Assembly (NCBI GenBank): GCA_001874255.1
Contig: MPDC01000007.1
Location: 1 to 64,000 of the forward strand
DNA: 64,000 nt
Source of the DNA: Alphaproteobacteria bacterium MedPE-SWcel
GTDB taxonomy: Bacteria; Pseudomonadota; Alphaproteobacteria; Rhodobacterales; Rhodobacteraceae
Direction of reading: 5' to 3'
The stretch's first letter is position 1, and every line of letters begins with the position of its first letter. The position numbers were made by a program, and so were the translations under genes. Below the pieces are notes generated by a model. That model saw only the letters and a program-made list of their open reading frames with translations, was not told the origin of the DNA and ran no database searches. Below, in pieces: positions 575-23,247 of the stretch.

Positions 575-575
575 G

Positions 576-1334
576 TCAACCGATCCTCTCGTCAAAGCGC
601 CAGGGGCGGGCGGGGCCATCCAGCAGCCGGCGCAGAAGGGTTTCGCAGAAGGCCCAGATCTTCTCGTCATGGATCAGGTGGTGCGTCAGCAGGCCCAGCG
701 GTTCCGCCCGTTCCGCCGACCCCGCCCGGCGGGCCTGCAACTGCGCCACAAGAGGGGCCAGGATCAGCTCGCTGTCAAGCAGGCTGCGGTCTCCGTGCCA
801 ATCGACCGGATCGATATGGGTGTTGATCTGCAGAAGTCCCGGCGCCGCCTGCGCCCGCTTGCGGGGGCCAAATGTCGAAACGGCCGCATAGTCCAGACCC
901 GCCAGCCAGGGCAACATCGCAGCCGAGATCCGGTTCCAGGGCGGCACGAACATGGGCCGGAGGTCCGGGCCGAACAGCGCCTTCAGTCGGGCGATGCCCT
1001 GCTCCGCCTCGTTCAGCGCCGCGTCGACCGGGCGGGTACTGCCGAATTCGCTTTTCTTGGCCTCCGCTGGCGCATGGTTCACATGCGCCCAGCCGTGCAC
1101 AACGGGCACCAGATGGCGCGAGCGGCGGACCGCCCCGGCCAGCTCGGCCTCTGCGGCGCGGGGGATCACCGCCAAATGCACGGGCATGTCCAGCTGCCCT
1201 GCCAGATCCTCCAACCGACCAAGCGCCGCGGTCGGCGCCACCGCATCGTCATCGCGCCACCACAGTGGCAGATGCAGCCCCTCCCGGCTCCAGAGTGTCA
1301 GTTCCGCATCCAGTGCATCCCAGCCGTTTGTCAT
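576..1334 (-). CDS. polysaccharide deacetylase-family protein
   Basis: The 252-residue protein has the layout of a NodB-like carbohydrate esterase: an acidic motif WWRDDD at residues 25-30, a histidine motif H-G-W-A-H at 80-84 with a further His at 87, and F-V-P-P-W at 129-133. In the family these give metal ligands and the active-site base, removing N- or O-acyl groups from sugars. No signal peptide is visible, so it probably acts in the cytoplasm on a precursor. It lies 20 nt downstream of a glycosyltransferase gene and 1 nt before the methyltransferase. It could instead be a non-catalytic or unusual-substrate member, because the motifs are not textbook NodB. Confidence 0.78.
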   Translation of the reverse strand: MTNGWDALDAELTLWSREGLHLPLWWRDDDAVAPTAALGRLEDLAGQLDMPVHLAVIPRAAEAELAGAVRRSRHLVPVVHGWAHVNHAPAEAKKSEFGSTRPVDAALNEAEQGIARLKALFGPDLRPMFVPPWNRISAAMLPWLAGLDYAAVSTFGPRKRAQAAPGLLQINTHIDPVDWHGDRSLLDSELILAPLVAQLQARRAGSAERAEPLGLLTHHLIHDEKIWAFCETLLRRLLDGPARPWRFDERIG

Positions 1335-1354: not shown

Positions 1355-2503
1355 CTATCTCTGCGAGGGGCGCAGCGCCCGGTGCAGCGTTTCAGCAATG
1401 TCCACGCTTCGGGCTGCCCCGTCAAATCGAAAGCCGTCAAGGCTGCGTTGCGGATCCTGCATGACTTGGCTCAGGGCGGTGCAGAGCCGGGCAGGCGTCA
1501 GGCGGGCGGCGGTTTCGACGGCGACCCCCGAGAGCGTTGCCAGGCTGCGGGCGCGCAGGCTCTGTTCTACCTCATTGCCGGCGTCAAACGGCACCAACAC
1601 CGCGGGCACGCCGGACTGCAGCAGATCAAGCGCCGTATTGTAGCCGCACATGCTGACCGAGGCCGCCGCATGGGGCAACATGGCCCGGAAATCCGGCCGC
1701 GCCGGTTCCAGGATCGCGGGCGAGGCGGGGTCGGACAGGGCGGCGATCCGCTCTGCCGCATCGGTGCCGCCGATCAGGAGACGCCATGTCCGGTCCGGCA
1801 TCTCCTTTGCCGCCTGCACCGCACAGGCATATAGCGCGTCGCCGACGCTGCCGCCGCCGGCGCTGACGAGGATCTCTGCCGCGCCGGCCCTGTCGGGATG
1901 GGGCGCCATCGCAGGCGGGGCCACATAGCCGGTATAGCGGAGCCTCTGCGACAGCGCGGGCGAGACCGGCCAGCTGGTCTCCAGCCGGGTCGCCTTGGGG
2001 TCAGAGTGCACCAGGACTGCGTCATAATACTGTGCGATCACCGCATCGGCAGCCTCGGCTTTTCGCGGCTTGGACGGGGGGGCGAGAATGTCGCGGATCG
2101 AGGACAGGACGAGGGGGCGCTCGGGCAGGGCATGGGCGGCCTCCAGCAGGACCTGGAACTCGGCCTGCAGGCTGCGCCGACCGAAGGGGTAGAGCTCTGT
2201 GATCAGCGCATCGGGGTGCAGGCTGCGGATGAGGCTCTGCAGATGCCTCTGGCGCGCCGCGTGATAGTCAGCGTTTGCCAGTGCGCCATCCGCAGCCAGC
2301 AGCCGGGAGAAGGCCAGCCCGTCCGATCGCAGCGGTGGCAGCTGTTCGAAGGCGACGCCCCGGGTCGACAGTTGCGGTGCCGCGCAGCCGCCGGAGACCA
2401 CGGTCACGGCATGGCCTGCCGCCGAAAAGGCCCGCCCCAGCGTCAGGGCGCGCGACAGATGCCCGGTGCCCAGGAGATGGGTCACCGCAATGATGACCTT
2501 CAT
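1355..2503 (-). CDS. MurG-like glycosyltransferase
   Basis: The 382-residue protein begins with the GT-B donor-fold signature G-T-G-H-L-S-R-A-L (residues 12-20). Its C-terminal half has SMCGYNTALDLL followed by GVPAVLVPF, the nucleotide-sugar-binding layout of MurG/COG4671 enzymes. It should transfer a sugar from a UDP- or GDP-sugar at the inner membrane face; the acceptor is unknown. The ATG at 2503 overlaps the upstream phosphatase stop by 4 nt, which fixes the start; a 493-codon reading from 2836 is an extension through that gene. It is the same general type as the product of 5410-6630. Confidence 0.85.
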   Translation of the reverse strand: MKVIIAVTHLLGTGHLSRALTLGRAFSAAGHAVTVVSGGCAAPQLSTRGVAFEQLPPLRSDGLAFSRLLAADGALANADYHAARQRHLQSLIRSLHPDALITELYPFGRRSLQAEFQVLLEAAHALPERPLVLSSIRDILAPPSKPRKAEAADAVIAQYYDAVLVHSDPKATRLETSWPVSPALSQRLRYTGYVAPPAMAPHPDRAGAAEILVSAGGGSVGDALYACAVQAAKEMPDRTWRLLIGGTDAAERIAALSDPASPAILEPARPDFRAMLPHAAASVSMCGYNTALDLLQSGVPAVLVPFDAGNEVEQSLRARSLATLSGVAVETAARLTPARLCTALSQVMQDPQRSLDGFRFDGAARSVDIAETLHRALRPSQR

Positions 2504-3084
2504 GCCGCCTCCTGCAGGAGCCGCACGGGCTCGGGCCATGGGCTGAGCTGACCGTCGGCGATGTCCACCACGAACAGCCGGTTGCGTTTGATCTGAAACG
2601 GGGCCGGGCCTGCGAAATCCCAGCCATGGGCGCGGGCCAGGATCATCCGCATGATGCCGATGTGGCAGACCGCGACGCTGTCGCGATTGAGGCTCAGGAC
2701 CCAGGGCCGCAGACGGTGCCAGACCTCGGCCGGGCTCTCGCCGCCGGGGGGGCGGAACTCCCAGCCCCAGGTTTCGATATCGCGAAAGCCGGAGCTGGCA
2801 TCGGCGCGGAGGTCGGCGCCCCGGAGGCCTTCCCATGCGCCCCAGTTCATTTCGACCAGCGCCGCATCCGTGCGCGGCGCGCGTCCCGCCACCAGCTGAG
2901 CGGTCTCTGTCGCACGCAGAAGAGGGCTGGACCAGAGCGCGGCCGCCTGCCAGGGGTCCGGCAGCGACAGGCCGGCGAGGTCGCGGCGGGCGTTGGCATC
3001 CAGCGCGATGTCGCTGCGACCCTGAATGCGGCCGGCGCGGTTCCAGCCGGTATGGCCATGGCGGAGCAGGGCGAGGCGGATCAT
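2500..3084 (-). CDS. histidine phosphatase family protein
   Basis: The 194-residue protein starts with the phosphohistidine motif L-R-H-G-H-T (nucleophile His9). It keeps the acidic segment EMNWGAWEG and a late VCHIG histidine, as in the cobalamin phosphatase/phosphoglycerate mutase superfamily. These enzymes hydrolyse small phosphomonoesters through a phosphohistidine. Both ends overlap neighbouring glycosyltransferase genes by 4 nt, so its substrate is probably a sugar-phosphate or other intermediate of the same pathway (inference). The ATG at 3084 was chosen over an upstream GTG because it gives the standard N-terminus and the ATGA coupling. Confidence 0.85.
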   Translation of the reverse strand: MIRLALLRHGHTGWNRAGRIQGRSDIALDANARRDLAGLSLPDPWQAAALWSSPLLRATETAQLVAGRAPRTDAALVEMNWGAWEGLRGADLRADASSGFRDIETWGWEFRPPGGESPAEVWHRLRPWVLSLNRDSVAVCHIGIMRMILARAHGWDFAGPAPFQIKRNRLFVVDIADGQLSPWPEPVRLLQEAA

Positions 3085-4172
3085 CCGGGGCGTCCCAGCA
3101 ACGGGCGCAACGCGGACCAAAGCGTCGCGCTGGCGGCGGGGCGGAGGTGGTGCGTGGCGATATGGTGGCGCGCCCGCCGTCCGATATCGGCGCGTTCAGA
3201 CGCAGAGGTCAGCAGGCGCTTCACCGCCAGCGCCAGCGCCCCGGCGCCCGCGTCAACCGCAGGAGCCTGACCGGACAGCAGGATATCGCGCAGGCCGGGG
3301 CGATCCTGTGCCACCACCGGCAGCCCATGGGCCTGGGCCTCCAGATAGACCATGCCGTAGGCCTCGTTGACGCCGGGCCACAGAAACAGGCCCGCGCGGC
3401 CATAGGCCTGGTGCATCGCCTCCTGCTCCAGCGCGCCGAGGAGGCGGACCCGGCGGCCAAAAGGCGCTATCAGCGCCTCGACCAGCGGCCGTGCGGGGCC
3501 GTCGCCTGCGATCTCAAGCTGCCAGTCGCTCTGGCCGAGCGTGTCGAGATGGCGCAGGGTTTCGGCGATCAACGCATAGGAGGCGAGCTTGTCACCGGGG
3601 CGCATCATCCCCGCCGCCAGCATCGGCCCGTCGAGGGTGCCGGCCGCGGGCAGATCGGCGCGGGGCAGGAAGGGGCGCAGATGTATCAGGCGCTGGTCGC
3701 CCATGCGGTCGCGTTCCAGCGTGGCGCGGTCCTGTTCGGTGAGGTAGAAGATCACCGCCGCCTGATCGGCGGCCGCGTGGGCGGCGCGGGCAAAGTCGGC
3801 CCAGGGGCCGGACAGGCGTTTGCTGGCGCGGGTGCTCTCGATCTGGACGTAGGGGATGTCGCGGGCGGCGGCGACGGCCGGGCCGATCAGATCCGGCGCC
3901 TTGTAGTAATTGTGGTAGGTCACCCAGAGGTCGACCTCCGGCATCTCTTCGATCAGACGCCCCACTTCGCGGGCGGCGCGCTGCTGCAGCAGCGCCTGTT
4001 GGTCGCGGTCGCCCAGCATCTCATGCAGGCGCAGGTCCGAGGCCAGCGTGACCTCGCCGCCGCCCTCCTGCAGCAGGGCCATCAGGCTGCGGGCCATGGC
4101 GCGGTCGCCGGAGGGCGTGGGATGGGTCGGCGCTTTCATCGGGGCGTAGAAGGCAAGGCGCGGCGGGCTCAT
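3081..4172 (-). CDS. family 4 (group 1) glycosyltransferase
   Basis: The 363-residue GT-B protein carries the retaining-transferase signature in its C-terminal half (GVNEAYGMVYLEAQ then HGLPVVA, the E-x7-E region that contacts the donor nucleotide sugar). The N-terminus reads RLAFYAPMKAP, typical of GT4. No membrane segment is seen. It overlaps genes on both sides by 4 nt within the glycan operon. The sugar and acceptor cannot be read from sequence. Confidence 0.85.
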   Translation of the reverse strand: MSPPRLAFYAPMKAPTHPTPSGDRAMARSLMALLQEGGGEVTLASDLRLHEMLGDRDQQALLQQRAAREVGRLIEEMPEVDLWVTYHNYYKAPDLIGPAVAAARDIPYVQIESTRASKRLSGPWADFARAAHAAADQAAVIFYLTEQDRATLERDRMGDQRLIHLRPFLPRADLPAAGTLDGPMLAAGMMRPGDKLASYALIAETLRHLDTLGQSDWQLEIAGDGPARPLVEALIAPFGRRVRLLGALEQEAMHQAYGRAGLFLWPGVNEAYGMVYLEAQAHGLPVVAQDRPGLRDILLSGQAPAVDAGAGALALAVKRLLTSASERADIGRRARHHIATHHLRPAASATLWSALRPLLGRPG

Positions 4173-5413
4173 TGCGCAGCCTCCAGCATTGCCGTCAGGC
4201 GGCGGTTCAGCTGCGCAATGCCGGGGGGCATGGTGAAGTCCGCCCGCAGCCGGGCCAGCGCGGCAGCGGCCATGCGCGCGGCGTCCTGCGGCGCGCGCGC
4301 GAGATCCAGCATCGCCGCAGAGAGCGCCTCGGGCGCGTCATCGCTGAGCACCCCATGGGTACCGTTTTCGATGAACTCCGGGATCGCGGAGACCGGCGTG
4401 GACAGGATCGGCAAGCCTTGCGAGGCGGCCTCCATCAGCACATTGGGCAGCCCGTCGCGGTCGCCATCCGCCGCCACCCGCGAGGGCAGCACGAAGAGAT
4501 CGGCGGCGCGCATCGCGGCAATCACCTCGGGTTGATCGCAGGCGCCGCGCCAGGTGATGCGGGCCCCGATGCCTGCGTCCTCGGCCATGCCCTGCAGCAG
4601 ATCGCCAAGGGCGCCGCCGCCGATATGGGTCCAATGCCAATCGAGACCGGCAGGCAGCAGTGCCAGCGCCGCAATCAGCCGGTCGAACCCCTTCTTTTCC
4701 ACCAGACGGCCCACCGACATCATCTGAAACGGGGCCTCGGGAGGGCGCAAGGCGCGCTCTGGCGGGGCGGGGAAGCGGCCGAGATCCAGCCCGTGATAGA
4801 TCATATCCACCGGGGTGCCGCTGGCCAGATCCTGCAGGTGTCTGGCGCCAAACCCGGTGCAGGTGGCGCCAAACGCGGCGCCGTGGCTCTGGTCCGAGAG
4901 CTTCTCGGTGAGTTCCCAGTCGGGCGAGGTCCAGATGTCCTTGGCGTGGGCGGAAAAGCTCCAGGGCAGGCCGCGCATGATGGCGGCGTAGCGGGCGACA
5001 GAGGACGGCGTGTGCAGGAAATGCGCGTAGAGCCCGCGCACCTCGGGCGGCAGTTCGCAGGCCAGCACGCAGGCCTGACCAAAGCGGCGGATGCGGTTGC
5101 GGGTTGGGTCGCGGCGCAGATCGGCGCGCCAGATCCGCCAGGCCTCGGCATATCCCGGCAGCGCCCGTGCCGCCGCGCGGGCGCGGGTGACACGGGCGGG
5201 GGCGTCGTGGAGATATTCCGGCAGATAGTGAACGGGCGCCTGCAGGCGGTCGTGCAACGGGTGCGTCTTGGCATCGGTGGGATGGCGCAGGGACCAGATC
5301 TCGAAGGGCTGGCCAGCCGCTTCCAGCGCCACCAGTTCCTGCGCGATGAAGGTCTCGGACAGGCGTGGCCAGCCCTTGACCAGCACCGCAAGCGCCGGGC
5401 GTGTCTGGCTCAT
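4169..5413 (-). CDS. family 4 glycosyltransferase
   Basis: The 414-residue protein begins LAVLVKGWPRLSETFI, the N-terminus usual for colanic-acid-type GT4 enzymes. It has VGRLVEKKGFDRLI at the start of the donor domain and DGLPNVLMEAASQGLPILS as the E-x7-E segment. It should add a sugar from a nucleotide donor to a lipid-linked or soluble acceptor. The ATG at 5413 overlaps the upstream gene by 4 nt; the longer reading from 5632 lies inside that gene. It is the third of four glycosyltransferases in the operon. Confidence 0.85.
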   Translation of the reverse strand: MSQTRPALAVLVKGWPRLSETFIAQELVALEAAGQPFEIWSLRHPTDAKTHPLHDRLQAPVHYLPEYLHDAPARVTRARAAARALPGYAEAWRIWRADLRRDPTRNRIRRFGQACVLACELPPEVRGLYAHFLHTPSSVARYAAIMRGLPWSFSAHAKDIWTSPDWELTEKLSDQSHGAAFGATCTGFGARHLQDLASGTPVDMIYHGLDLGRFPAPPERALRPPEAPFQMMSVGRLVEKKGFDRLIAALALLPAGLDWHWTHIGGGALGDLLQGMAEDAGIGARITWRGACDQPEVIAAMRAADLFVLPSRVAADGDRDGLPNVLMEAASQGLPILSTPVSAIPEFIENGTHGVLSDDAPEALSAAMLDLARAPQDAARMAAAALARLRADFTMPPGIAQLNRRLTAMLEAAQ

Positions 5414-6630
5414 TCGGCGGCCTCGCGCGGCAGTTGGTGCAACAGCGTGTCGACGCGGCGGGTGACGTAATCCAGCCCGTCCAGCAGCCCGTCCGAGATC
5501 GCCCGCGACGGTTGCGGCTGATGCGCCAGCGCCCGGATCGCGCCGATCATGGCCTCGGGTGTCCAGCCATCGCGGCTTTCGTCCAGCATCGCCACAAGGC
5601 CCAGCTCTTCGGCGCGGCTGGCACGGATCCATTGCTCCAGACGCGGGGTGGTGCGCGGCACGATCACGGCGGGTTTGTCAAAGGACAGCACCTCGCAGAA
5701 CGTATTGTAGCCGCCCATGCAGATCACCCCCTGCGCGCCGGCAAAGAGCGTCTCGATCTCGCTTTCAAAGCCGACGGCCGTCACCCGCCCCTGCAGCGCG
5801 GCCACCCGGTTTTCAAAGGCGGCGCGGGTCTCGCCGGACAGGAAGGGACCGTAGACCAGCATCGCGCGCGGCGCCAGATCCGGGTCTCGTTCATAGGCGG
5901 AAATCGCCAGATCCACCATCATCGCGCCATCGCCGCCACCACCGGGGGTGATCAGCACATAGGGCTGCTCCGGCAGTTCTCCGATGGTGCCGAGGTCACG
6001 GCGCAGGTATCCGGTCCAATGCATCCGCGCCTGCGCCGCGGCGCTGAGGTCCAGCCCGGCGGTCGGGTCGTAGATGTCGCGCAGCCCATAGACCCAGATC
6101 TCATCATAGTAGCGTTCGGTGGCGTCCAGCGCCCATTTCCGGTCCCACTCGGCGCGCAGCACCTCGGGTTCGTCCAGCACGTCGCGCAGACCCAGAACCA
6201 GCTTTGCCTTGCCGCGCCCCTGCAGGAGATCCAGCGTCGGCAGCAATTCACCTCGAAAGCCGGTGGGCTCCTTGTCAACCACTAGAATATCCGGGTCAAA
6301 CTGCTCGGCGGTGGAGCGGATGAGCCCGGCGCGCAGCTCGGTGGTTTCCTCGATATTCATGCCCATCGTGCGGCTGGCGTAGGAGCCGTCGGCGCGTTTG
6401 ATGACCCCGGGCAGGCGCATGTGATCGACCCGGTTCGGAAAGGCAAACCGCCCTGCCACGGGCGAGCCGGTGAGGATCATTGCCGAGGCATTGGGATCCG
6501 CAGCCGTGATGGCCCCGGCCAGCGCCCGCGACCGGCGCAGATGGCCAAGCCCGAAGGTGTCGTGGCTGTAGAACAGGATGCGCGGGCCACGCCCGGCGGG
6601 GCCCAGACGGGGAGGACGGCTGGCTCTCAT
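5410..6630 (-). CDS. MurG-like glycosyltransferase, first gene of glycan operon
   Basis: The 406-residue protein has FYSHDTFGLGHLRRSRALA near residue 20 and, late in the chain, ICMGGYNTFCEVLSF followed by KPAVIVPR. These are the acceptor- and donor-side signatures of COG4671/MurG-like GT-B enzymes. It opens the seven-gene operon and its ATG (6628-6630) follows a 387-bp leader region. It resembles the product of 1355-2503 in fold, so the operon encodes two MurG-like and two GT4 enzymes. No transporter or polymerase is visible inside the window; it may lie left of position 1. Confidence 0.85.
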   Translation of the reverse strand: MRASRPPRLGPAGRGPRILFYSHDTFGLGHLRRSRALAGAITAADPNASAMILTGSPVAGRFAFPNRVDHMRLPGVIKRADGSYASRTMGMNIEETTELRAGLIRSTAEQFDPDILVVDKEPTGFRGELLPTLDLLQGRGKAKLVLGLRDVLDEPEVLRAEWDRKWALDATERYYDEIWVYGLRDIYDPTAGLDLSAAAQARMHWTGYLRRDLGTIGELPEQPYVLITPGGGGDGAMMVDLAISAYERDPDLAPRAMLVYGPFLSGETRAAFENRVAALQGRVTAVGFESEIETLFAGAQGVICMGGYNTFCEVLSFDKPAVIVPRTTPRLEQWIRASRAEELGLVAMLDESRDGWTPEAMIGAIRALAHQPQPSRAISDGLLDGLDYVTRRVDTLLHQLPREAAE

Positions 6631-9489: not shown

Positions 9490-10836
9490 TCAGGGGTCGG
9501 GCCACTGCGCCGGGTGGGTGCCACTCTGGGTGGCAGGCAGGGACCAGCCCATCTGGCACCCCGGCAGCGTCAGGGGCGCACGCAGACGCCGCGCCGGACC
9601 CCAGCCGCTGGCCTCGTGACCGGCATAATCGGCCTCTGTCGCATCGAAGATGGCGGGGCCGTGCTGATGGCGCGGCAGACTGGCGAGCTCTTCCGCCATA
9701 CGGGCCAGCGAAAGTCGCGCGCAACAGACGGGTTCGCCTGTTGCGGCGGCGCTCAGCGCATTGAGCACCGATGCGGCCATCAGATAACCGGTGGCATGGT
9801 CCAGCGCCTGAACCGGCAGGGGGGCCGGTCCCTCGGAGGCTGCCCGAATCCGGCCCGTGTCGGCCAGGCCTGAACTCATCTGTACCAGACTGTCGAACCC
9901 GCGCCGCTGCGCCCATGGTCCGGTCCAGCCATAGGCATCCAGCGTCACTTCGACCCGGTTTGGCGCGATGGCGTCGCGTGTGGGTAAATCCAGCCCCAGC
10001 GCGTCCAGCGCTCCGGGCCGGTAGCCGTGCACCAGCACATCGGCCTGCGACAGCAGCGCCTTGAGCCGTCTGAGCCCCGCATCCGTCCGAAGATCCATCT
10101 GTGCCATGTATTTGCCCGCAGCAATGTCCTGCAGCACCCCCGGCTCGTCCCAGCCCGGCGGGTCGATCCGCAGCACATCGGCGCCGAACCCGGCCAGCGT
10201 GCGGGTGCTGACCGGACCGGCCAACACGCGCGTCAGATCGAGCACCCGCAACCCCGCCAACGGCCGGGAGAGACAGGCTGCGGGGCGATCGCGCAGGACA
10301 ATATCGCGCGGCAGCGTCCAGTCGATCAGAGGGTCCTGCGCAACCGCCGCCCCCTGTGGGTGGGCCAGCCAATCCGCCCGGCTGCGCAGGATCGCGGCGA
10401 CACCGTAGGCCTCGACCACCGCCGCCTCCAGCGCGTCTCCGGCCCAGGTCGAGATGGCGGCTGTCACCGCCTCCCTGTCTTCGGCACAGCCAAGAACCCG
10501 CAGCGCGGCCGCCCGGTGATGCGGCAGGTTGGTGTGCAGGCGGATCCAGCCGTCCGTACAGGCATAGTTGCCCGCGATCGGGTCCCAGAGCGCGGGCATC
10601 TCCCAGCCCTCGGGACGAAAGGAATGCCCGAACCACAGCGATGCCAGCCGCTGGTCCACCGTGACCGGCGGCGGGGCCGGCGCGAGGTTCAGGGCCGCCA
10701 CCAGCCGGGCCAGCTCCTGCCCCACCGCCGCGATCGAGGCCGTGGCCAGCTCCGACACCGCAAAGGCGCCGGGACGGTGACCAGTGCCGGTGACCTGATA
10801 GGACCCGGGCCGGGGCAGGGCGGACAGCCGCGTCAT
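9490..10836 (-). CDS. family III CoA-transferase with permuted-looking domain order
   Basis: The 448-residue protein belongs to the CaiB/BaiF family, which moves CoA between carboxylic acids. The family's usual N-terminal motif PLAGLRVLDLTRVLAGP occurs only at residue 192, and the catalytic-Asp region R-R-G-F-D-S-L is at 312-318 (Asp315). The first 190 residues instead contain YACTDGWIRLHTN, like the C-terminal subdomain of ordinary members. Its ATG overlaps the upstream permease gene by 4 nt, so it is the last gene of the peptide-transport operon and may activate an imported acid (inference). Enzyme class is secure; substrate is not. Confidence 0.85.
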   Translation of the reverse strand: MTRLSALPRPGSYQVTGTGHRPGAFAVSELATASIAAVGQELARLVAALNLAPAPPPVTVDQRLASLWFGHSFRPEGWEMPALWDPIAGNYACTDGWIRLHTNLPHHRAAALRVLGCAEDREAVTAAISTWAGDALEAAVVEAYGVAAILRSRADWLAHPQGAAVAQDPLIDWTLPRDIVLRDRPAACLSRPLAGLRVLDLTRVLAGPVSTRTLAGFGADVLRIDPPGWDEPGVLQDIAAGKYMAQMDLRTDAGLRRLKALLSQADVLVHGYRPGALDALGLDLPTRDAIAPNRVEVTLDAYGWTGPWAQRRGFDSLVQMSSGLADTGRIRAASEGPAPLPVQALDHATGYLMAASVLNALSAAATGEPVCCARLSLARMAEELASLPRHQHGPAIFDATEADYAGHEASGWGPARRLRAPLTLPGCQMGWSLPATQSGTHPAQWPDP

Positions 10837-12002
10837 TGCTGATAGGGGTCGAGACTGTCGCGCAGCCCGTCGCCCAGGAAATTGAACGCCAGCACCACCA
10901 CGATGATCGGCAGCATCGGAATGGCGGTCCAGGGGTAGATCTCGATATTGGCGAGGTTCTGCGCGTCGTTCAGCATCACCCCCCAGCTGACCGCAGGCGC
11001 CCGCAACCCGAGACCGAGAAACGACAGCGCCGTCTCGCCGAGGATCATCGCCGGGATCGACAGCGCCGCCGAGGCGATCAGATGGCTCATGAAATTCGGC
11101 AACAGGTGTTTCCGGATCACCCGCCCCGACGAAGCTCCCATCATCTCGGCGGCGCGGACGTATTCTTCTTCGCGCAGCGACAGGAATTTGGCCCGCACCG
11201 AACGCGCCAGACCGGGCCAGTCGAGAATGCCGAGGATGATCGAGATGATGAAGAACACCGCCACCGGCGACCAGTTCGACGGCACCGCCGCCGACAGCGC
11301 CAGCCAGAGCGGCAGCTCCGGCAGCGAGCGCAGGATCTCGATCGCCCGGTTGATGACCCAGTCGATCTTGCCGCCGAAATACCCCGCAACAGAGCCGAAG
11401 AAGATCCCCAGCACGAAGGACACGGTGATGCCGATCAGACCCACCGTCAGCGACAGCTGCGCGCCAAACAGGATGCGGCTGAAGATATCGCGCCCCAGCC
11501 GGTCAGAGCCCCAGAGAAACAGCGTGGCGCCCTCGGGGGCGCAGACCAGATGGGTGTCGGCGGGGATCAGCCCCGCCAGCCGGTATTGCGACCCTTCGCA
11601 GAAGAACCGCAGCTGTCGCGGGGTGTCATAATCGGGTTTGACCACCCATTGAAACGTCTCCAGATCCGCCTCCGAGGTCATCGGATAGATGAAGGGGCCA
11701 AGGAACCTGCCCTCGTGAAACAGCTTCACTCCCTGCGGCGGCGAATAGATATGCTCCGCATCGCGGTCATTGGGGCCATAGGGCGCCACGAAGCCTACGA
11801 AGGGCAGCATCAGATAGCAAAACAGCAGGAAAGCGCCGGAGATCAGGCCGAGCCTGTGGGTCTTGAACTTGCGCCAGACCAGCACCCGGTTCGGCGCGTC
11901 GAGATCCTTGCGCTCCAACTCCCGCAGGGAGGCGCCGGGGTCATAGGGGGCGGCGTCGACATAGCGCTCATCCTGGCCCCTGTCTGATGGGTCACGGCTC
12001 AT
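10833..12002 (-). CDS. ABC transporter permease, DppC/OppC/YejE type
   Basis: The 389-residue inner-membrane permease has an N-terminal cytoplasmic tail, a first helix, and a long periplasmic insertion (about residues 65-165) as in YejE-type permeases. The usual core follows, with the EEYVRAAEMMGASS-x7-KHLLPN coupling loop that contacts the ATPase. It forms the channel with the product of the upstream gene (4-nt overlap) for import of peptides or peptide-like solutes. Five or six helices are visible after the insertion. Confidence 0.9.
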   Translation of the reverse strand: MSRDPSDRGQDERYVDAAPYDPGASLRELERKDLDAPNRVLVWRKFKTHRLGLISGAFLLFCYLMLPFVGFVAPYGPNDRDAEHIYSPPQGVKLFHEGRFLGPFIYPMTSEADLETFQWVVKPDYDTPRQLRFFCEGSQYRLAGLIPADTHLVCAPEGATLFLWGSDRLGRDIFSRILFGAQLSLTVGLIGITVSFVLGIFFGSVAGYFGGKIDWVINRAIEILRSLPELPLWLALSAAVPSNWSPVAVFFIISIILGILDWPGLARSVRAKFLSLREEEYVRAAEMMGASSGRVIRKHLLPNFMSHLIASAALSIPAMILGETALSFLGLGLRAPAVSWGVMLNDAQNLANIEIYPWTAIPMLPIIVVVLAFNFLGDGLRDSLDPYQQ

Positions 12003-13027
12003 GTGTCGCGGCTTTCATAGCGGATGCGCGGATCCAGAAGAACCAGCAGCACGTCAGAGATCATGGTGCCGATCAGGGTCAGCAGCGCGACAAACATCAG
12101 CACGAAGCCCGACAGGAACATGTCCTGCGACTTCAGCGCCTGCAGCAGGACGGGGCCGATGGTCTGCAAGCCCAGCACCACCGAGACCAGCACCGAGCCG
12201 GAGACCATGGCAGGCAGCAGGTTGCCGATATCGGCGACAAAGGGGTTGAAGGCCACCCGCAGCGGGTATTTCATCAGCATCCGGCTCGGGCGCATGCCCT
12301 TGGCCACGGCGGTCTCCACATAGGGTTTGCCCAGCTCGTCGAGCATATTGGCACGCAGGCGCTGCATCATCGCCGAGGCGCCGGAGGTGCCGATCACGAA
12401 GGTCGGCACGATCAGGTGGATCAGGATCGACCGCACCTTCTCCCAGCTCATCGGTTCGCCCTCGTACTCGGGCGCCATCAGCCCGCCGATGGGCAGGCCG
12501 AGATATTGGTGGCCGTAGTAGAACAGGATCAGCGCCAGCAGGAAATTCGGCGTCGCCAGACCGAGATAGCCGATGAAGGCCGCCGTATAGTCGATCATGG
12601 TGCGCGATTTCGCCGCCGCCAGAACCCCAAGCGGCAGGGCGACCAGATAGACAAACAGCACCGCCGCAAGATTCACCAGCACGGTAAGCCAGAGACTGTC
12701 GCCGACAATCTCCGAGACGGGGCGGTCGAATTCAAAGGACCAGCCGAAATTGCCCTGCACCATGCCCGAGAACCCATGCGGGCCGGGCAGCAGGCCCATC
12801 CAGATGAAATACTGCTGCCACAGGGGCTTGTCCAAGGCGTATTCGCGGCGCAGGAACTCTGCCTTGGCGACGCCCGCCTCCTGTCCGGTGGCGCGCAGCT
12901 CGGCGATCTGGTTGGACAGGAAATCCCCCGGCGGCAGGTTGATGATGCAGAACACCAGCACCGACACCAGCAGCAAGGTGAGCAGCATGGTGCCGAACCG
13001 ATAGATTGCGTAGCGCAGGATCTCCAT
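11999..13027 (-). CDS. ABC transporter permease, DppB/OppB type
   Basis: The 342-residue protein begins MEILRYAIYRFGTMLLTLL, the usual DppB start with one helix, followed by a periplasmic loop and five further helices. It carries the coupling-loop sequence RLRANMLDELGKPYVETAVAKG. It pairs with the YejE-like permease. The ATG shares one base with the stop of the binding-protein gene (TGATG), and its stop overlaps the next start by 4 nt, giving strict coupling. Confidence 0.9.
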   Translation of the reverse strand: MEILRYAIYRFGTMLLTLLLVSVLVFCIINLPPGDFLSNQIAELRATGQEAGVAKAEFLRREYALDKPLWQQYFIWMGLLPGPHGFSGMVQGNFGWSFEFDRPVSEIVGDSLWLTVLVNLAAVLFVYLVALPLGVLAAAKSRTMIDYTAAFIGYLGLATPNFLLALILFYYGHQYLGLPIGGLMAPEYEGEPMSWEKVRSILIHLIVPTFVIGTSGASAMMQRLRANMLDELGKPYVETAVAKGMRPSRMLMKYPLRVAFNPFVADIGNLLPAMVSGSVLVSVVLGLQTIGPVLLQALKSQDMFLSGFVLMFVALLTLIGTMISDVLLVLLDPRIRYESRDT

Positions 13028-14994
13028 CAGCCGTCGCCATCCTCGAAGAAGAATTCATCGACCCGGTGCACACCGAAATGCGCCCCCGGATCCCAGGCCC
13101 AGATGGCGGTCTTTGGCACATTGCGCAGGCGGTTGGAGACCACGACGGGCTGCGGCGCGCCGGCGACGATGCCGATGGCAAAGACATTGTCGGCATGGAT
13201 CTGCAGCATCTCGCGCCAGGCCTCGGCGCGGGCCTCGGCGTCCTCGGCGCTGTTCCAATCGTGATAGAGCGCCATCAGTCGTTCGGCGGCGGCGAGGTCC
13301 GGAGCCTCGCCCACGGCGCCGCCGGTCTGGTGGTACTGGCCCCATTTCGGCCAGGACAGGAACACCTGATCGGTGGGGGCGAGATAGGCGGGCGAGGTGT
13401 AGCTTTGCGGCAGGCCATTGTCCCAGCCATACCAGACCGAGGCCATGGTGGTGCCGGAGAACACCCGGTTGCGCAGGATGTCGCGGTCCAGCGGCCGCAT
13501 CACCAGCTTGACGCCGATGTCGCGCCAGTCGTCGGTGATGATCTGCAGCGCGTTCTCCACCTCCTGACGTTCGCCGGCGGTCTCGATCACCAGCTCCATC
13601 GGGCGGCCGTCGGGCAGGCGGCGGATGCCGTGGCCGTCGCGGTCGGTCAACCCGGCCTCGTCCAGCAGCGCATTGGCCAGATCCGGGTCGAATTGCGCCC
13701 AGGCCTCGCGCAGGTCCTGCGAGAAGAACGGGCTTTGTTCCAGCACGGTCATGGCGCCGGGTTTGGCCAGTTTGAAATAGAGCGATTTGTTGATCGCGGC
13801 CCGGTTGATCGCCACCGAGAGCGCCCGCCGCACCCGCACATCCCGCAGGATCGGGCGCCAGACATCATCGACGGTGTTCAGGTTCGGGTAGATCGCGATC
13901 TGCGAGGCGGTGCCGGAGGACCACAGCTCAGTCCGGTAGCCGCCCGCGGCCTCGCCCTTGCGCAGGATCGGGATGTCGCGGAAGTCCAGCCCGCGCGCCT
14001 GCAGGTCGGTCTCGCCCGCGTTGGATTTCGCCGCCACCAGCCCGCCGGAGACGATCTCCATTTCGACGGTATCGATATAGGGCAGCTGCACGCCATTCTC
14101 GTCGATACGGTGATAATAGGGGTTGCGGACGAACTTGTGGCGGATCTTCTTGCCCTGGGTGGCGTTGATCCAGGGATGCAGGGTGGGCAGGTCCGGATTG
14201 TCGAACTTGTCCATATTATCAAGCTTGTTATGGAGCGCGGCCCAGCTTTTGACGCGGGCATAGTCGATTTCTTCCGCCAGTGTTTCGGGGTCGGCAAACG
14301 CCGTGTGGAACTGTTTCAGATAGGCCGAGGGGCGATAGATGAAGGGCGGCGCGGCCTGCGCCAGCGTCTGCAGGAAGCCGGGGTTGGGCTGGCTCCATTC
14401 AAACACCACCGTGGTGGCATCGGGAAAGCTGACCTGCGGCAATTCGCCGTTGACGCGCACGAAATCCGGCGGGCCGGTGGGGTTCAGTTCCGCGTTGTTG
14501 ACGATATGAACCCACCAGTATTCGAAATCCGCCGAGGTGAACGGATCGCCGGAGGACCAGCGATGACCGGGGCGCAGGCGCAGGGTGAATTTGCGGTCCG
14601 CCTCGCTCTCGAAACTCTCGAGGATATCGGGCACCAGATCGTAGGCGTCATTATACCCCACAAGCCGGGCATAGCCGTAGACCACCATCTGCCGGATGTC
14701 CTTGGACCGGGTCACCATGGTGTTGAGCGTCCCGCCCTGCAGGCCGGGGGTGCGGCCCCGCGCGGTCAGGTTCACCACCAGCGGAACATCCGGAAGCCGT
14801 TCGGCCACCGGCGGCAGGGTGCCCGCATCGACCTCAGCGCGCAAAAAGGCGCTCTCCTGTGCGGCAGGCTGCGCCCCGGCGGTCAGCGGCAGTGTGGACA
14901 GGGCCAGCAGCAGGGCCAGGGAGAGGGTCCGGGACAGGCCTGCGGGCAGGGCGCAGGCCGCGCGGCGAATGAGGAAGTCTCGGGCATTAAACAT
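13027..14994 (-). CDS. ABC transporter substrate-binding protein, SBP_bac_5 family
   Basis: The 655-residue exported protein has a signal peptide (about residues 1-36, arginine-rich start, hydrophobic core, cleavage after A-G-A). Family features follow: an early GGTLNTM segment, TLRLRPGHRWSSGDPFTSADF and VRVRRALSVAINRAAI. It is longer than a standard dipeptide-binding protein (about 530), matching the larger YejA-like group that takes longer peptides or modified solutes. The start at 14994 lies 8 nt inside the end of the ATPase gene. It delivers the ligand to the two permeases. Confidence 0.88.
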   Translation of the reverse strand: MFNARDFLIRRAACALPAGLSRTLSLALLLALSTLPLTAGAQPAAQESAFLRAEVDAGTLPPVAERLPDVPLVVNLTARGRTPGLQGGTLNTMVTRSKDIRQMVVYGYARLVGYNDAYDLVPDILESFESEADRKFTLRLRPGHRWSSGDPFTSADFEYWWVHIVNNAELNPTGPPDFVRVNGELPQVSFPDATTVVFEWSQPNPGFLQTLAQAAPPFIYRPSAYLKQFHTAFADPETLAEEIDYARVKSWAALHNKLDNMDKFDNPDLPTLHPWINATQGKKIRHKFVRNPYYHRIDENGVQLPYIDTVEMEIVSGGLVAAKSNAGETDLQARGLDFRDIPILRKGEAAGGYRTELWSSGTASQIAIYPNLNTVDDVWRPILRDVRVRRALSVAINRAAINKSLYFKLAKPGAMTVLEQSPFFSQDLREAWAQFDPDLANALLDEAGLTDRDGHGIRRLPDGRPMELVIETAGERQEVENALQIITDDWRDIGVKLVMRPLDRDILRNRVFSGTTMASVWYGWDNGLPQSYTSPAYLAPTDQVFLSWPKWGQYHQTGGAVGEAPDLAAAERLMALYHDWNSAEDAEARAEAWREMLQIHADNVFAIGIVAGAPQPVVVSNRLRNVPKTAIWAWDPGAHFGVHRVDEFFFEDGDG

Positions 14995-16777
14995 GGCAAC
15001 GCACCTTGTGTCCGGGGTCCAGTGGCACCAGGGGCGGGGCGTCCTGTCCGGCAAAGCGGAAGGCCTCCGGCCAGTTCTCCGGCGCACCGGCGCCCTGGGC
15101 TACGAGTTTCAGGTTGATGGGCCGGTCAACGTCCGGCACCGGCTGAGCGGCAATCAACGCCTTGGTATAGGGGTGTTTGGGGTCATGAAACAACACCTCT
15201 GGCGGGGCCTGTTCGACAATCATGCCCCGGCGCATCACCGCCACTTCGTCGGCAATGCGGGCCACCACCGCAAGGTCGTGGCTGATAAACAGATAGGACA
15301 GTTGCCGGGCATCCCGAATCTCTTCCAGAAGCGAGAGGATCTGCTCCTGCACCGACACATCCAACGCCGAGGTCGGCTCGTCGCAGACCAGAAGCTTCGG
15401 GTCCAGCATCAGGGCGCGGGCAATGGACAGGCGCTGCCGTTGCCCGCCGGAAAACGCATGGGGAAACCGCGTCAGCATATCCGTCGGCAGCCCCACGAGG
15501 CCGAGCATCTCTGCCGCGCGATCCCGGTGATCGGCGCGGCTGCCGGTGCCGTGGATTTCCAGCGGTTCCGAGAGCGTATCAAGGATGCGCTGGCGCGGGC
15601 TGAGCGAGGAATAGGGGTCCTGGAACACCATCTGCGCCTGCCGCTGAAAGGCCCGCCGGGCCGCGCGGTCCATGTCGTGGACGCGCAAGGGATCCGCACC
15701 GGGGGAGGCGCGGAACAGGATCTCGCCACCGGGGTCCACGGTCTCGGCCCCCAGGGCGATCCGGGCGGCGGTGGTCTTGCCGGAGCCGCTCTCGCCGACG
15801 ATGGCGAGGGTGGTGCCACGGGGCAGTTCCAGATCCACCTCCTCGCAGGCCCGGACCAGCGTCGGCTTGCTCCAGCTCTTGCCGGAGCGCAGGGTGAAGG
15901 TCTTTGTCACATGTTTCAGCTCGAGGATCAGGTCCTTGTCCGGCCCCTCGGTGCCGGTCTCGCGACGGGCTGCCGGTTCCTGCGGGATCTTGGGCGCCGC
16001 ATGGAACAGATCCTGAGTATAGGGGTGGGCCGGGGCGCGCAGGATCGGTTCGGCGGCGCCGGCCTCCATCACCCGGCCCTTGTGCATGACCACCACCTGT
16101 TCCGCCATATTGGCGACCACCCCGAGGTCATGGGTGACGAGGATCATCGCCATGCCGGTTTCCTGCTGCAGCTCTTTCATCAGCCCCAGCACCTGCGCCT
16201 GGGTGGTGACATCCAGCGCGGTCGTCGGCTCGTCCGCGATCAGCAATTCCGGTTTCGCCACCATCGCCATGGCGATCATCGCCCGCTGGCGCATCCCGCC
16301 GGAGAGTTCGAACGGATAGGATCGCCAGGTGCGCTCCGGGTCGGGAAAGCCGACGCGCTCGAAACAGTCGAGCACCTGTTGTCTGGCCTCCGCTTCGGAG
16401 CAGCGCCCATGCAGGTGAAGCACCTCCGAGACCTGATTGCCGATCCGGTGCAGCGGCGACAGCGAGCGCATTGGCTCCTGAAAGATCATCGCGATGCGAT
16501 TGCCGCGCACATGACGCATCTGCCGCTCGCTGATCTGTGCCAGATCCAGATCGCCGTCCGCTCCGTTGCCGGCCAGGATCATGCGGCCGCAGTCGAGCCG
16601 AGCCGCACGCGGAAGAATGCGCAGGATGGCGCGGCAGCTGATGGTCTTGCCGGACCCGCTTTCGCCGACAATCGCCAGCGTTTCACCGGCGGCGACCGAA
16701 AAGCTCACATTGCGGACAACCGGGTTGTCCTTCCCGAATCCGATACTTAGATCTTCTACGGACAGAAGGGGGCGCAT
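14987..16777 (-). CDS. ABC transporter with two fused ATPase domains (DppD-DppF type)
   Basis: The 596-residue protein contains two complete nucleotide-binding domains. The first has Walker A GESGSGKT near residue 33, signature LSGGMRQR and Walker [13 protein letters not shown]. The second has GESGSGKTT near residue 320, signature FSGGQRQR and [12 protein letters not shown]. Oligopeptide C-terminal motifs (HPYT, LFHAAPK) follow each domain. It powers the importer encoded downstream. It is first in the operon, preceded by a long near-perfect palindrome at 16876-16900. Confidence 0.92.
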
Positions 16778-16900: not shown

Positions 16901-16959
16901 GGTGCGGCGAGTGTGACCCTCCGGCCCGTATGTGGCCCCTGTACGGACTCGGTTCCGGC

Positions 16960-17012: not shown

Positions 17013-17136
17013 GGTCCTGTCGGGGCGGGGAGGGCCGTGACTGCTGCATTGCCTTCCGCGGGCTGATAGTCAGAAGATACGACAGAAACGCGACAGGCAG
17101 TGCGGCCTGCCGCAGCCGCCAGAAAAAGGATCGCAA

Positions 17137-17628
17137 ATGCCGACACGACTGGATGTTTTTATCGACCGGATGGTGTCTCAGCGCGCCTGTCTGGACTATG
17201 CTATCGCCGAAACGGATGCGCTGTCGGGGCCGGTGTTCGAGCTGGGTCTGGGCAATGGGCGGACCTATCACCACCTGCGACACAGGGTTGCGGGGCGGGA
17301 CATATTTGTCTTTGAACGCGCGGTCGGGGCCCATCCCGACAGCATTCCGGCCGCGGACCGGACGATTCTGGGCGATGTGCGCGAGACGCTGCCCGCGGCC
17401 CTGCTGCGGTTTGGCCCCACGGCGAGCCTGATACATGCGGACCTCGGCGGGCATGATCTGGAAAAGAACGACGCCTTTGCCCGGCTGGTCTCGCCCCTTG
17501 TGGAGCCGCTGCTGGCGCCGGGCGGAATGATGGTGTCATCGGACCGGATGTATTTTGACGCATTGACCGAACTGGCGCTGCCCGAGGGCGCGGTCGAGGG
17601 GCGGTGTTTCATCTACCGCCGCGGCTGA
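17137..17628 (+). CDS. small class I SAM-dependent methyltransferase (paralogue)
   Basis: The 163-residue protein has SAM motif I (FELGLGNGR, residues 34-42) and an acidic second motif (VFERA). It lines up along its length with the methyltransferase at 95-574, including GLGNGRTY-x-HL, an H-P-D/S segment and LLAPGGMMVSSD near the end. It stands as the first of a short rightward group before the GST gene (109-nt gap). Substrate unknown; family assignment is firm. Confidence 0.82.
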   Translation: MPTRLDVFIDRMVSQRACLDYAIAETDALSGPVFELGLGNGRTYHHLRHRVAGRDIFVFERAVGAHPDSIPAADRTILGDVRETLPAALLRFGPTASLIHADLGGHDLEKNDAFARLVSPLVEPLLAPGGMMVSSDRMYFDALTELALPEGAVEGRCFIYRRG

Positions 17629-20080: not shown

Positions 20081-20199
20081 CATCATCCGACTAGCCTGCG
20101 GCCGATGCAAGGCCTGTGGCAGGGTTTGCGCCTTTGTTTGCGCCATTGCCTGCGACCGTAAAACCGCGCTACCCATGGCGAACTGACTACCGAATTTCC

Positions 20200-23100
20200 G
20201 TGCCACCTGATTGTCGGAGCCCTCCCATAGAACGCTCGCTGTTCCAATTCATCTGGAAATATTCCAAACGGGATCAGATTGTCCTCTTGCTGGTCACGAC
20301 CTGCCTGTTTCCGTTGCTCTATCTGACGCTGGAACTGCCCAAACGGATCATCAACGATGCCATCGGTGCCCAGTCCTCGACCGTTGACGTCTGGGGCATG
20401 AGCTTTGATCAACTCACCTATCTCTGGATCCTGTGTGGGGCGTTCCTCCTGGCGGTGCTGGTACACGGCCTGACCAAGATGCGCATCAACACCATGAAGG
20501 GCGTGCTGTCCGAGCGGATGCTGCGCCGGTTTCGCTATAGTCTGATCGCCCGCGTCCTGCGCTTTCCGCAGCCCTATTTCGAACGCACCAGCCAGGGCGA
20601 ACTGGTCTCCATGATCACCTCGGAATCCGAACCCATGGGGGGGCTGATGGGGGATGCGGTCAGTCAGCCGGTGCTGCAGGCCGGCCAGATGCTGACCATC
20701 CTGTATTTCCTGTTCCTGCAGAATTTCTGGTTCGGGCTGGCTGCCATTGCGCTGATACCGTTGCAGGCCTGGGTGATCCCCATGCTGCAGCGCCGGATCA
20801 ACCGATTGAACAAGAAACGCGTCCAGCAGGTGCGGGGGCTGGCTTCCGAAATCGGCGAGAGCGCGGCCGGCGCCTCGACCCTGCGGGTCAACGGGGGCTG
20901 GCGCTACCGGATGGCGCGGGTGACGGACCGTCTGGGGCGGCTCTACGAGATCCGGTTCGAGATCTATCAGAAAAAGTTCTTCATGAAGTTTCTCAACAAC
21001 TTCATCACCCAGCTGACGCCCTTCTTCTTTTATGCGGTCGGCGGCTATCTGGTGCTGGAGGGGCGGGTGTCGCTCGGGGCGCTGGTTGCGGCGCTGGCGG
21101 CCTACAAGGACTTGGCCTCGCCGTGGAAAGAGCTGTTGGCCTATTACAACCAGACCCAGGACATGGCTGTGCGCTGGGATGTGATCCTCGAACGCTTCGC
21201 GCCCCCCGACATGGTGGACGAGCATCTGATGGAGGGCGAGCCCGAGGAACTGCCGCATCTGGACGGGGATCTGGTGCTGGATGGGGTCAGCGTCCGGGAT
21301 TCGGATGGCAATCTCGTGCTCGAAGAGATCACCGCCACCTTTCCGAAGGGCGAGCTGATCGGGATTGCCGCCCCCTCCGAGGAGGACCGTCGGGCGCTGG
21401 CCGAAGTCCTGACCCGGGAGGTGCTGCCCTCGGCCGGGCGCGTCACGGTCGCGGGCCACAATATCCGTGAGCTGCATCAGATGGTTCTGGCCACCCGCAT
21501 CGGCCATGCCACCTCGCGGCCGGTGTTGTTTCGCGGATCCTTCGGCGAAAACGTTCTGATGCCGCTGCGCATGCGGCCCATGGAAGAGGCCACGGACAGG
21601 CGCGCGCAACAGGATGCGGTGCGGGCCGGCAACAGCCCCGATCCGTTTGGTGTCAACTGGGTCGATCCCGGCGTGGCGGGGTTCCAGCGCACCGAAGAGC
21701 TGCGGGACTGGTGGTTGCGGATCGTCGAGGGGATCGGCTCTGACACGGCGCTGCTGCGGCGCGGCATGGATCAGGTCTTTGACAAGACGGAACATCCGAA
21801 ACTGGCGGAGGCGCTGGTGCGTTTGCGGCCACATGTGCAATTGGCCCTGATGGAGTCGGGGCTGGATGCCTTTGCCCATTTCAACGACCGCGAGCGCTAT
21901 AATCCGGCGCTGCCGGTGGCGGAAAACCTGCTCTATGCCACCCGCTCCGTGCCGATCACCTACGAGCTGCTGTTGCAGCAGACCGAATTCCTGCAGACCG
22001 TGCGGCGCATCGGGCTCGACAAGGATCTGGTGAAACTGGCGCAGGATGTGCTGGAAATGCTGCGGCAGATTTTCGGCATGGATGGCACCACCCACCCGTT
22101 GTTCCGCAAGCTGGGGCTGGAGGTGTCGGACTACGAGGCCGCGCTGCAGCTGATGCAGAAGATCAAGCTGAAGGGGATGGAGACGCTGGACCCGGACGAG
22201 CTGGCGCAGATGATGATCGTGCCCTTCTCGATCTCGGCCGAGGCGCTGGGGCCCGCCTTCAGCAGCGAGATCGAAAACCGCATCCTGTATCTGCGCGACA
22301 CCCATGGCGCCGAGCTGCTGAGCACGCTGGATGATATTTTCGTGCCGCTCTACGAGGGTCATTTCTCGCCCGGGTTCACGGTGCTGGAGAACGCGATCTT
22401 CGGCAAGATCTCGGACGGTGCCGGGCCACGGGCCGAAGACCTGCGCAAGGTTGTGGCGGATGTCATCGACAAGGCCGGCGTGCGGGAAATGGTGGTCGAG
22501 CTGATCTTTGATCTGCCCGTCGCCGTCGGCGGCCAGGGATTGGGCGCGAGCTTTGCAGAGCCATTGGCGTTCTGCCGGGCCTCGATCAAGCGGCCGGATA
22601 TCCTGATCCTCGAAGGCGCCCTGGCCAGCTTTGACCGCGATACGCGGCGGGCGATGCAGGACAATCTGCGTGATTTGCTGCCGAATGCGACGCTGATCTT
22701 TCTGGAACCCTCCTTCCGGAACCCGGATCGGTTTGACCACTATTTCGAACTGCGTCAGGGCCGCCTGAAGGACGAGCGGGCCGAAGACCGGGGCGCGGGC
22801 GAAGAGGACAGTACCTCGGCGGCGGATCTGTCGCGCAAACTGCGGGCGCTGGAAAGCACAGAGCTGTTCTCCGGCCTCAACCGTCGCCAGTTGCGGCTGT
22901 TGGCCTTTGGGGCGCGCTGGTACGAGGCGGCGCCGGGCACTGCGGTGTTCCACAAGGATGACGACGCCTCGGACGGGGCCTATATGATCATCGAGGGGCA
23001 GGCGGGATTGTTCCTGCCGGCGGATCAGGAGGGCGGCGAGAGCCAGCTGATCGCCAAGGTCGGCCCCGGTCGGCTGGTGGGCGAACTGGGCCTGATCCGC

Positions 23101-23247
23101 AAGGAGCCGAGGGCCCTGTCGATGATCGCGGAAACCGATCTGACCTGTTTGCGGATCGGCGAAGAAGAATTCCTGGCCGTGGTGGAAAACGACGCCAACA
23201 CGGCCTTCAAACTGCTGCAGGTGGTGGCGGGCTACGTGGCGAATTGA
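20200..23247 (+). CDS. ABC-exporter-like pseudo-ATPase with C-terminal cyclic-nucleotide-binding domain
   Basis: From the GTG at 20200 the protein has 1015 residues. Residues 10-310 are an ABC-exporter membrane domain (for example FERTSQGELVSMITSESE, VRGLASEIGESAAGASTLR). A nucleotide-binding-like domain follows, but every catalytic motif is lost: the P-loop position reads GIAAPSEEDRRA (388-399), the signature VGGQGLGASFAEP (776-788), Walker B ILILEGALASFD with Gly for the catalytic Glu (806), and the H-loop FLEP (Glu836 for His). P-loop and signature are about 390 residues apart, so roughly 270 residues are inserted. Residues 880-1010 are a cNMP-binding fold (GAYMIIEGQAGLF, GRLVGELGLI). The start is uncertain: GTG 20116 is also in frame, and an AUA at 20227 has a GGAG seven bases before it. 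Confidence 0.82.
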   Translation: MPPDCRSPPIERSLFQFIWKYSKRDQIVLLLVTTCLFPLLYLTLELPKRIINDAIGAQSSTVDVWGMSFDQLTYLWILCGAFLLAVLVHGLTKMRINTMKGVLSERMLRRFRYSLIARVLRFPQPYFERTSQGELVSMITSESEPMGGLMGDAVSQPVLQAGQMLTILYFLFLQNFWFGLAAIALIPLQAWVIPMLQRRINRLNKKRVQQVRGLASEIGESAAGASTLRVNGGWRYRMARVTDRLGRLYEIRFEIYQKKFFMKFLNNFITQLTPFFFYAVGGYLVLEGRVSLGALVAALAAYKDLASPWKELLAYYNQTQDMAVRWDVILERFAPPDMVDEHLMEGEPEELPHLDGDLVLDGVSVRDSDGNLVLEEITATFPKGELIGIAAPSEEDRRALAEVLTREVLPSAGRVTVAGHNIRELHQMVLATRIGHATSRPVLFRGSFGENVLMPLRMRPMEEATDRRAQQDAVRAGNSPDPFGVNWVDPGVAGFQRTEELRDWWLRIVEGIGSDTALLRRGMDQVFDKTEHPKLAEALVRLRPHVQLALMESGLDAFAHFNDRERYNPALPVAENLLYATRSVPITYELLLQQTEFLQTVRRIGLDKDLVKLAQDVLEMLRQIFGMDGTTHPLFRKLGLEVSDYEAALQLMQKIKLKGMETLDPDELAQMMIVPFSISAEALGPAFSSEIENRILYLRDTHGAELLSTLDDIFVPLYEGHFSPGFTVLENAIFGKISDGAGPRAEDLRKVVADVIDKAGVREMVVELIFDLPVAVGGQGLGASFAEPLAFCRASIKRPDILILEGALASFDRDTRRAMQDNLRDLLPNATLIFLEPSFRNPDRFDHYFELRQGRLKDERAEDRGAGEEDSTSAADLSRKLRALESTELFSGLNRRQLRLLAFGARWYEAAPGTAVFHKDDDASDGAYMIIEGQAGLFLPADQEGGESQLIAKVGPGRLVGELGLIRKEPRALSMIAETDLTCLRIGEEEFLAVVENDANTAFKLLQVVAGYVAN

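Follow-up and report, generated by a model that had tools for sequence, protein, structure and literature searches.

How can a protein built like an ATP-binding cassette (ABC) exporter persist once the motifs of its ATPase have gone, and what might it do in their place? The question is raised by a gene on the forward strand of contig MPDC01000007.1 of Alphaproteobacteria bacterium MedPE-SWcel (assembly GCA_001874255.1), whose first 64,000 nucleotides are the window analysed here. The gene encodes an ABC-exporter-like protein in which a dead ATPase domain is joined to a cyclic-nucleotide-binding (CNB) domain, and the analysis points to a maintained member of an unnamed, alphaproteobacterial family. 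The protein is laid out as follows.

20227..23247, forward strand: ABC-exporter-like protein with dead ATPase domain and fused CNB domain (1006 codons and stop from the proposed ATA)
20245..21192, forward strand: transmembrane domain, ABC exporter fold (aa 15–330; Pfam, PDB sequence search, AlphaFold2, Foldseek)
21244..21567, forward strand: N-half of the ATPase domain, Walker A lost, ordinary Q-loop unit (aa 348–455)
21568..22506, forward strand: extra segment with two further Q-loop-like units, without a PDB fold match (aa 456–768)
22507..22776, forward strand: C-half of the ATPase domain; signature, Walker B, catalytic Glu and H-loop lost (aa 769–858)
22858..23244, forward strand: CNB domain, cassette GEL...PRALS (aa 886–1014)

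Residues are counted from position 20203. Pfam matches ABC_membrane at residues 48–298 (6.7e-21) and cNMP_binding at residues 910–997 (2.3e-15; 56.8 bits against a cut-off of 27.5), while ABC_tran reaches 13.0 bits only, below its cut-off of 25. In a sequence search of solved structures, the alignment to PCAT1 covers residues 68–462 and 768–857. It breaks at query 462/chain 465 and restarts at query 768/chain 485, so the net surplus is about 285 residues, close to the 270 or so of the original prediction. The whole-chain AlphaFold2 model has a predicted local distance difference test (pLDDT) of 77.7 and a predicted template-modelling score (pTM) of 0.67. Its top Foldseek matches are ABC exporters (E ~6e-14), with low template-modelling scores (0.2–0.3, query length). 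Exporters lead the PDB matches by sequence and by fold, and the intact membrane domain and the C-terminal cNMP fold, both noted earlier, are borne out. The sequence matches and the predicted model identify the protein as an ABC exporter (type IV fold) by descent. It resembles type IV fold exporters (PCAT1, TmrAB, MsbA, P-glycoprotein) in transmembrane-domain homology, overall fold and the order of transmembrane and ATPase domains, but differs in its replaced ATPase motifs, the extra residues with Q-loop-unit repeats and the C-terminal CNB domain. Just 3' of the stop codon, at 23279–23362, the window has short imperfect repeats of the type gaactgacggggc.

The motif states were read by alignment with relatives that retain the motifs. 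GxxxxGK[S/T] is absent, the window reading APSEEDRR; the Walker A Gly-Lys has become Asp395-Arg396, and both residues are invariant in 62/62 rows of an alignment of the window with 61 loci. The LSxxQ (LSGGQ) signature reads LGASF. The Walker B Asp is replaced by Glu804 and the catalytic Glu by Gly805; most orthologues retain the Asp of Walker B (consensus LILD). The H-loop His is gone, and Glu835/Pro836 occupy its place. Judged from its sequence, the protein carries none of the marks of a working ABC ATPase (Walker A, signature, Walker B, H-loop), so that the replacement of all ATPase motifs claimed in the original prediction stands. The losses are also fixed, in 28 of 28 rows of the window's clade. 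This clade, fused and motif-less, has a support of 100 on a FastTree tree with long branches and 25 open forks, from which only this single clade was used.

The protein had been called maintained rather than decayed, and substitution rates agree. Against seven close orthologues, the ratio of nonsynonymous to synonymous rates (dN/dS) is 0.02–0.10 for the transmembrane domain, 0.03–0.12 and 0.02–0.08 for the two ATPase-derived halves, 0.06–0.15 for the extra segment and 0.05–0.12 for the CNB domain, compared with 0.10–0.60 for the linker, the highest region; some dS values, above 1, approach saturation. Conservation is highest in the transmembrane domain, with a mean identity of 86% to 21 orthologues. 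The matched stretch is open in 61 of the 62 loci tested (out of 80 loci), with an internal stop in one, L109, from a metagenome assembly. By these sequence measures all domains but the linker are under strong constraint.

A profile of the extra segment finds the family in 131 of 385 genomes of the class Alphaproteobacteria (138 places); in a phylum-wide draw it occurs in 31/398 genomes, all from this class. Literature searches turned up no paper on the family, which is not proof that none exists. The loss of the ATP site is graded. Among 87 distinct aligned members, four have GxxxxGK[S/T], 25 have GK only and 58 have neither; outside the window's clade (n=59) the numbers are 4, 25 and 30. The four with a canonical Walker A, all outside the window's clade, also have the Walker B Asp-Glu. 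L155 lacks the Q-loop Gln but retains, besides Walker A and the Walker B Asp-Glu, an LSGAQ signature and the H-loop His. In the other three, L164, L190 and L203, the CNB domain is fused; Walker A and B are retained and the H-loop His is missing. This gradation suggests that the family ancestor probably bound ATP. Homologues with intact Walker A and B, which the original prediction had named as contrary evidence, do exist (4/87), but none lies within the window's clade, and they are evidence of ancestral ATP use, not of ATP use here.

A second copy of the family in the same genome (L122, C54:40972-44019; 50% identity) belongs to a sister clade in which the cassette Glu is Asp. It has a GTG start and lies near a DUF6478-type gene; its relatives also lie near a CAAX-protease-type gene. 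Another member, L117 (G034:C62), is a single open frame of about 1190 codons in which some 340 additional bases separate the transmembrane domain from the remainder.

The C-terminal domain belongs, on its sequence, to the cyclic-nucleotide-binding domain family; E961 and R970 of its cassette are invariant in all 62 rows, window included. It resembles bacterial CNB domains (PF00027) in exceeding the Pfam cut-off and in keeping the cassette Glu and Arg, and differs in its fusion to an ABC exporter fold and its tie to a glycan cluster. The domain had been taken as added to one protein. The pairing is instead class-wide: in many relatives it is an adjacent, separate gene, with cassettes such as GEIAILCDVPRTATV, and in the window's clade it is fused. 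At least 118 of the 138 ABC places have a CNB match no further than 1.5 kb away. Of the 20 misses, 8 are places in genomes of the bacterial family to which the window belongs (G000, G061, G190, G367), where the domain is fused and its score too weak for the list. Nineteen loci with wide flanks, chosen outside that bacterial family (L118-L120, L184-L190, L196-L200, L202-L205), have, by our count, the domain beside or inside the ABC gene in 19/19, the glycosyltransferase GTa in the fetched stretch in 13/19 and an adenylate/guanylate cyclase gene in 4/19. In R. lentis the annotation lists, in a row, a cyclase, an Opp-type importer, three glycosyltransferases, the ABC protein and the CNB protein, and an S. 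meliloti plasmid is annotated in much the same way, cyclase included. The genome of the window has five Guanylate_cyc (PF00211) matches, away from the window's contig. In the deposited pSymB of S. meliloti 1021 (L222, 2459-3813; 15667-18433) neither the cyclase gene nor the family relative runs in one frame, each being divided between two; the relative is matched over 2710 bases there, against 2709 in strain 2011.

Profile comparison shows the extra segment to contain repeats of the Q-loop unit of the protein itself. The relative L128 has three stretches like the exporter Q-loop unit, the ordinary one and two more, each ending (E/D)N-(L/I)-(L/F)-(F/Y)-G; the window reads ENVLM, ENLLYA and ENAIFG at these places. 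Profiles of the units were built from 53 family rows with the columns of L128. The two extra units match each other with 97.7% probability (E 1.4e-12) and the ordinary unit with 88.4% and 86.3%, and in each comparison 0/100 column-shuffled controls reach the real score. With these matches, the idea of an unrelated domain was dropped. Modelled alone, the segment has a pLDDT of 83.9; a PDB fold search with it gave a best E of 1.2 and nothing below 1.

The frame is open from 20116 to 23247, where its stop ends. The 1015-codon open frame described earlier is sound as to openness; its start probably is not, since GTG 20200 is not conserved among the closest relatives and translation probably starts at ATA 20227, a choice drawn from comparison of the relatives.

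20216..20219, forward strand: Shine-Dalgarno-like GGAG, 7 nt 5' of the ATA
20227..20229, forward strand: proposed non-canonical start codon ATA

The start motif was located in 77 of 81 rows (the window and 80 loci): ATA in 60, ATC in 15, ATG in 2. Five sister-group relatives have ATG or GTG at this place. From the upstream stop to the start codon, 47 of the 75 ATA/ATC rows have no ATG, GTG or TTG; the GTG codons at 20200 and 20116, neither conserved, were rejected as starts. The Shine-Dalgarno context has G at -11 in 73/73 and at -10 in 70/73 distinct contexts. Codon-periodic conservation begins at the ATA (entropy 1.77/1.54/1.55 upstream, 0.42/0.17/1.10 over codons 2–21). ATA makes up 3.7% of the Ile codons in the remainder of these genes. 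Because the rows are related, a binomial value for the ATA start is not a fair probability; a better control is the comparison of 26 columns with Ile in at least 90% of 76 rows, which shares the ancestry of the rows. There the ATA share is 80% in the start column and 8.5% in the next highest. Three observations count against the ATA: 28/75 of the ATA/ATC rows do have an upstream ATG, GTG or TTG, 8/75 have one four codons downstream, and 9/73 contexts are without any of the Shine-Dalgarno-like motifs searched. With a conserved non-NTG codon behind an upstream Shine-Dalgarno-like motif, the gene has the sequence features of AUA/AUC-initiated genes. In S. aureus, excerpts of PMC13009471 describe initiating ribosomes at the AUA of infC and ccpN and, for the ccpN AUA, about 10–30% of AUG expression. 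The likeness to these starts is the conserved AUA behind a Shine-Dalgarno-like motif; here the gene encodes a Roseobacter membrane protein and the start is predicted. The RefSeq start of the TM1040 gene lies about 17 codons 3' of the ATA place (L206, 12064). The infC gene of the window's own genome (L223) has no in-frame upstream ATG, GTG or TTG and, by reading, appears to start with ATA.

Genes for sugar polymers lie 5' of the gene in the window.

95..670, reverse strand: Methyltransf_17 (PF12692) methyltransferase, conserved cluster
576..1334, reverse strand: polysaccharide-deacetylase-type protein (homology to a labelled gene of L120 and TM1040 synteny; no Pfam family above cut-off)
1355..2536, reverse strand: glycosyltransferase GTc (Glyco_tran_28_C), putative start
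2500..3120, reverse strand: histidine phosphatase (His_Phos_1)
3081..4172, reverse strand: glycosyltransferase (Glycos_transf_1)
4169..5632, reverse strand: glycosyltransferase GTb (Glycos_transf_1), putative start
5410..6630, reverse strand: glycosyltransferase GTa (Glyco_tran_28_C), co-occurring with the ABC family
10833..16777, reverse strand: Opp-type ABC importer (two permeases, SBP_bac_5 binding protein, ATPase)
17137..17628, forward strand: second Methyltransf_17 methyltransferase

The cluster (95–17628) thus holds a methyltransferase, a deacetylase-type protein, four glycosyltransferases, a histidine phosphatase, the importer and a second methyltransferase. The order is the same in TM1040, the second methyltransferase not being in the TM1040 listing. 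At 6856–9408, from the glycosyltransferases to a CoA-transferase gene, two minus-strand frames have no Pfam family; the TM1040 counterpart carries a mechanosensitive channel gene. GTa occurs in 127/385 class genomes and together with the ABC family in 124 of the 131 ABC genomes (ABC only 7, GTa only 3; Fisher p 7e-88, in a test that ignores the shared ancestry of the genomes). GTa is no more than 5 kb from the ABC gene in 85 genomes; widening the limit to 20 kb gives 88. As the family often adjoins genes for sugar polymers, the protein may be a signal-controlled part of some cell-surface glycan pathway, a pointer from the neighbourhood that the original prediction did not contain and this analysis adds.

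The nearest analogue in design is MsbA2 of S. meliloti (SMb21191), which excerpts of PMC3687685 and PMC12239276 describe as the exporter of an unknown polysaccharide, its gene co-transcribed with glycosyltransferases. The likeness, as far as these excerpts go, is an ABC exporter gene with glycosyltransferases and a proposed export of glycan. MsbA2 had been the first guess for the pSymB relative. It was rejected on position (~938 kb against 842 kb) and on sequence, which is that of a different, canonical ABC protein: the 600-codon frame taken as msbA2 from its position has no extra module, and its Walker A and B are canonical. The true S. meliloti relative lies elsewhere on pSymB, at 841723–844432, and on sequence MsbA2 is not a family member.

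We tentatively favour, as possible though by no means established, a membrane gate or organiser that responds to cAMP, handles a glycoconjugate and works independently of ATP hydrolysis. The protein would be a dimer of exporter shape in the inner membrane, would no longer hydrolyse ATP and would be controlled by a cyclic nucleotide, most likely cyclic AMP (cAMP), bound at the C-terminal domain. The ligand would shift the ATPase-derived domain and the Q-loop-repeat module, which would in turn move the transmembrane helices. This movement would act on the product of the cluster's glycosyltransferases, a glycolipid or glycan, by opening, closing or organising its passage or assembly. The proposal draws on sequence for the predicted fold, the motif loss, the purifying selection, the intact ligand residues, the CNB partner of the family, the gene co-occurrence, the repeats and the ATA/ATC start; the dimer, the cAMP ligand, the coupling to the membrane domain, the glycan-related cargo and a low expression limited by initiation factor 3 (IF3) are what we infer from these. 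Joined into one account, in which an ABC exporter scaffold has turned into an ATP-independent membrane gate under second-messenger control, with a Q-loop-repeat module, a stepwise loss of the ATP site, a neighbouring or fused CNB switch, a glycoconjugate cargo from the cluster and a Roseobacter synthesis held low by an IF3-responsive AUA start, the parts make a doubtful whole.

Several observations weigh against such a cAMP-responsive gate. No cyclase (PF00211) match lies on the window's contig, and the sister clade has Asp where the cassette Glu stands. An exporter fold working without ATP has no precedent among the systems tested here. Since some relatives retain Walker motifs, nucleotide may still play a residual part in the wider family. 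The link to glycan genes is weakened by the shared ancestry behind the Fisher value and by distance: GTa is not within 5 kb in 46/131 genomes, in the window it is about 15 kb away from the ABC gene, and it is found in 0/11 of the other wide-flank loci of the window's bacterial family (L117, L121, L122, L191-L195, L201, L206, L207) within the fetched stretch, the TM1040 cluster sitting further out. In this bacterial family the GTa–ABC linkage is loose.

A somewhat unlikely alternative, though the best placed of the others, is that the protein is only a scaffold or regulator that anchors glycosyltransferases at the membrane and relays cAMP to them, without any passage. Every catalytic motif is lost and fixed, GTa co-occurs, and the large conserved extra module without a PDB match could be a docking surface; the strong purifying selection on the transmembrane domain, the best conserved region, however, exceeds what an anchor needs. 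In an ABC dimer, Walker A and signature both contribute to each composite site. With both lost here, both composite sites would be damaged on this architecture, which makes it quite unlikely that the protein is the degenerate half of a heterodimer whose canonical half-exporter, encoded elsewhere, hydrolyses ATP in the manner of TM287/288. Exporters with one degenerate site are common, according to excerpts of PMC7756269, and the genome has other exporter-like genes (weaker matches); among the genes identified at 1–24 kb of the window, 6856–9408 aside, no exporter-type partner was recognised. TM287/288 and TmrAB share with the protein an exporter fold and altered ATP-site residues, but, in the excerpted account of PMC7756269, one site stays canonical in exporters of the TM287/288 type, whereas the window chain has no complete catalytic motif. 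Improbable to a further degree is a residual or altered nucleotide site in a slow or nucleotide-gated exporter, to which the full Walker A of four relatives and the segment APSEEDRRA conserved in the clade would point; the window has Asp-Arg for Gly-Lys, Gly for the catalytic Glu and an ABC_tran score below cut-off. A decaying exporter relic, which the loss of all catalytic motifs and the internal stop in L109 (one of 62 loci) might suggest, is already contradicted by these results (61/62 stretches open, dN/dS 0.02–0.15 outside the linker, clade-wide conservation) and hardly credible.

If the cAMP-responsive gate or organiser is correct, an exporter fold would work or regulate without ATP hydrolysis, under the control of a second messenger, and intermediate stages in the loss of the ATP site survive within its family. 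The family would also be the marker of a conserved glycan locus that roughly one in three sampled Alphaproteobacteria possess (131/385), with cAMP as the likely signal, and the gene with its conserved AUA start is open to direct testing by reporter fusion.

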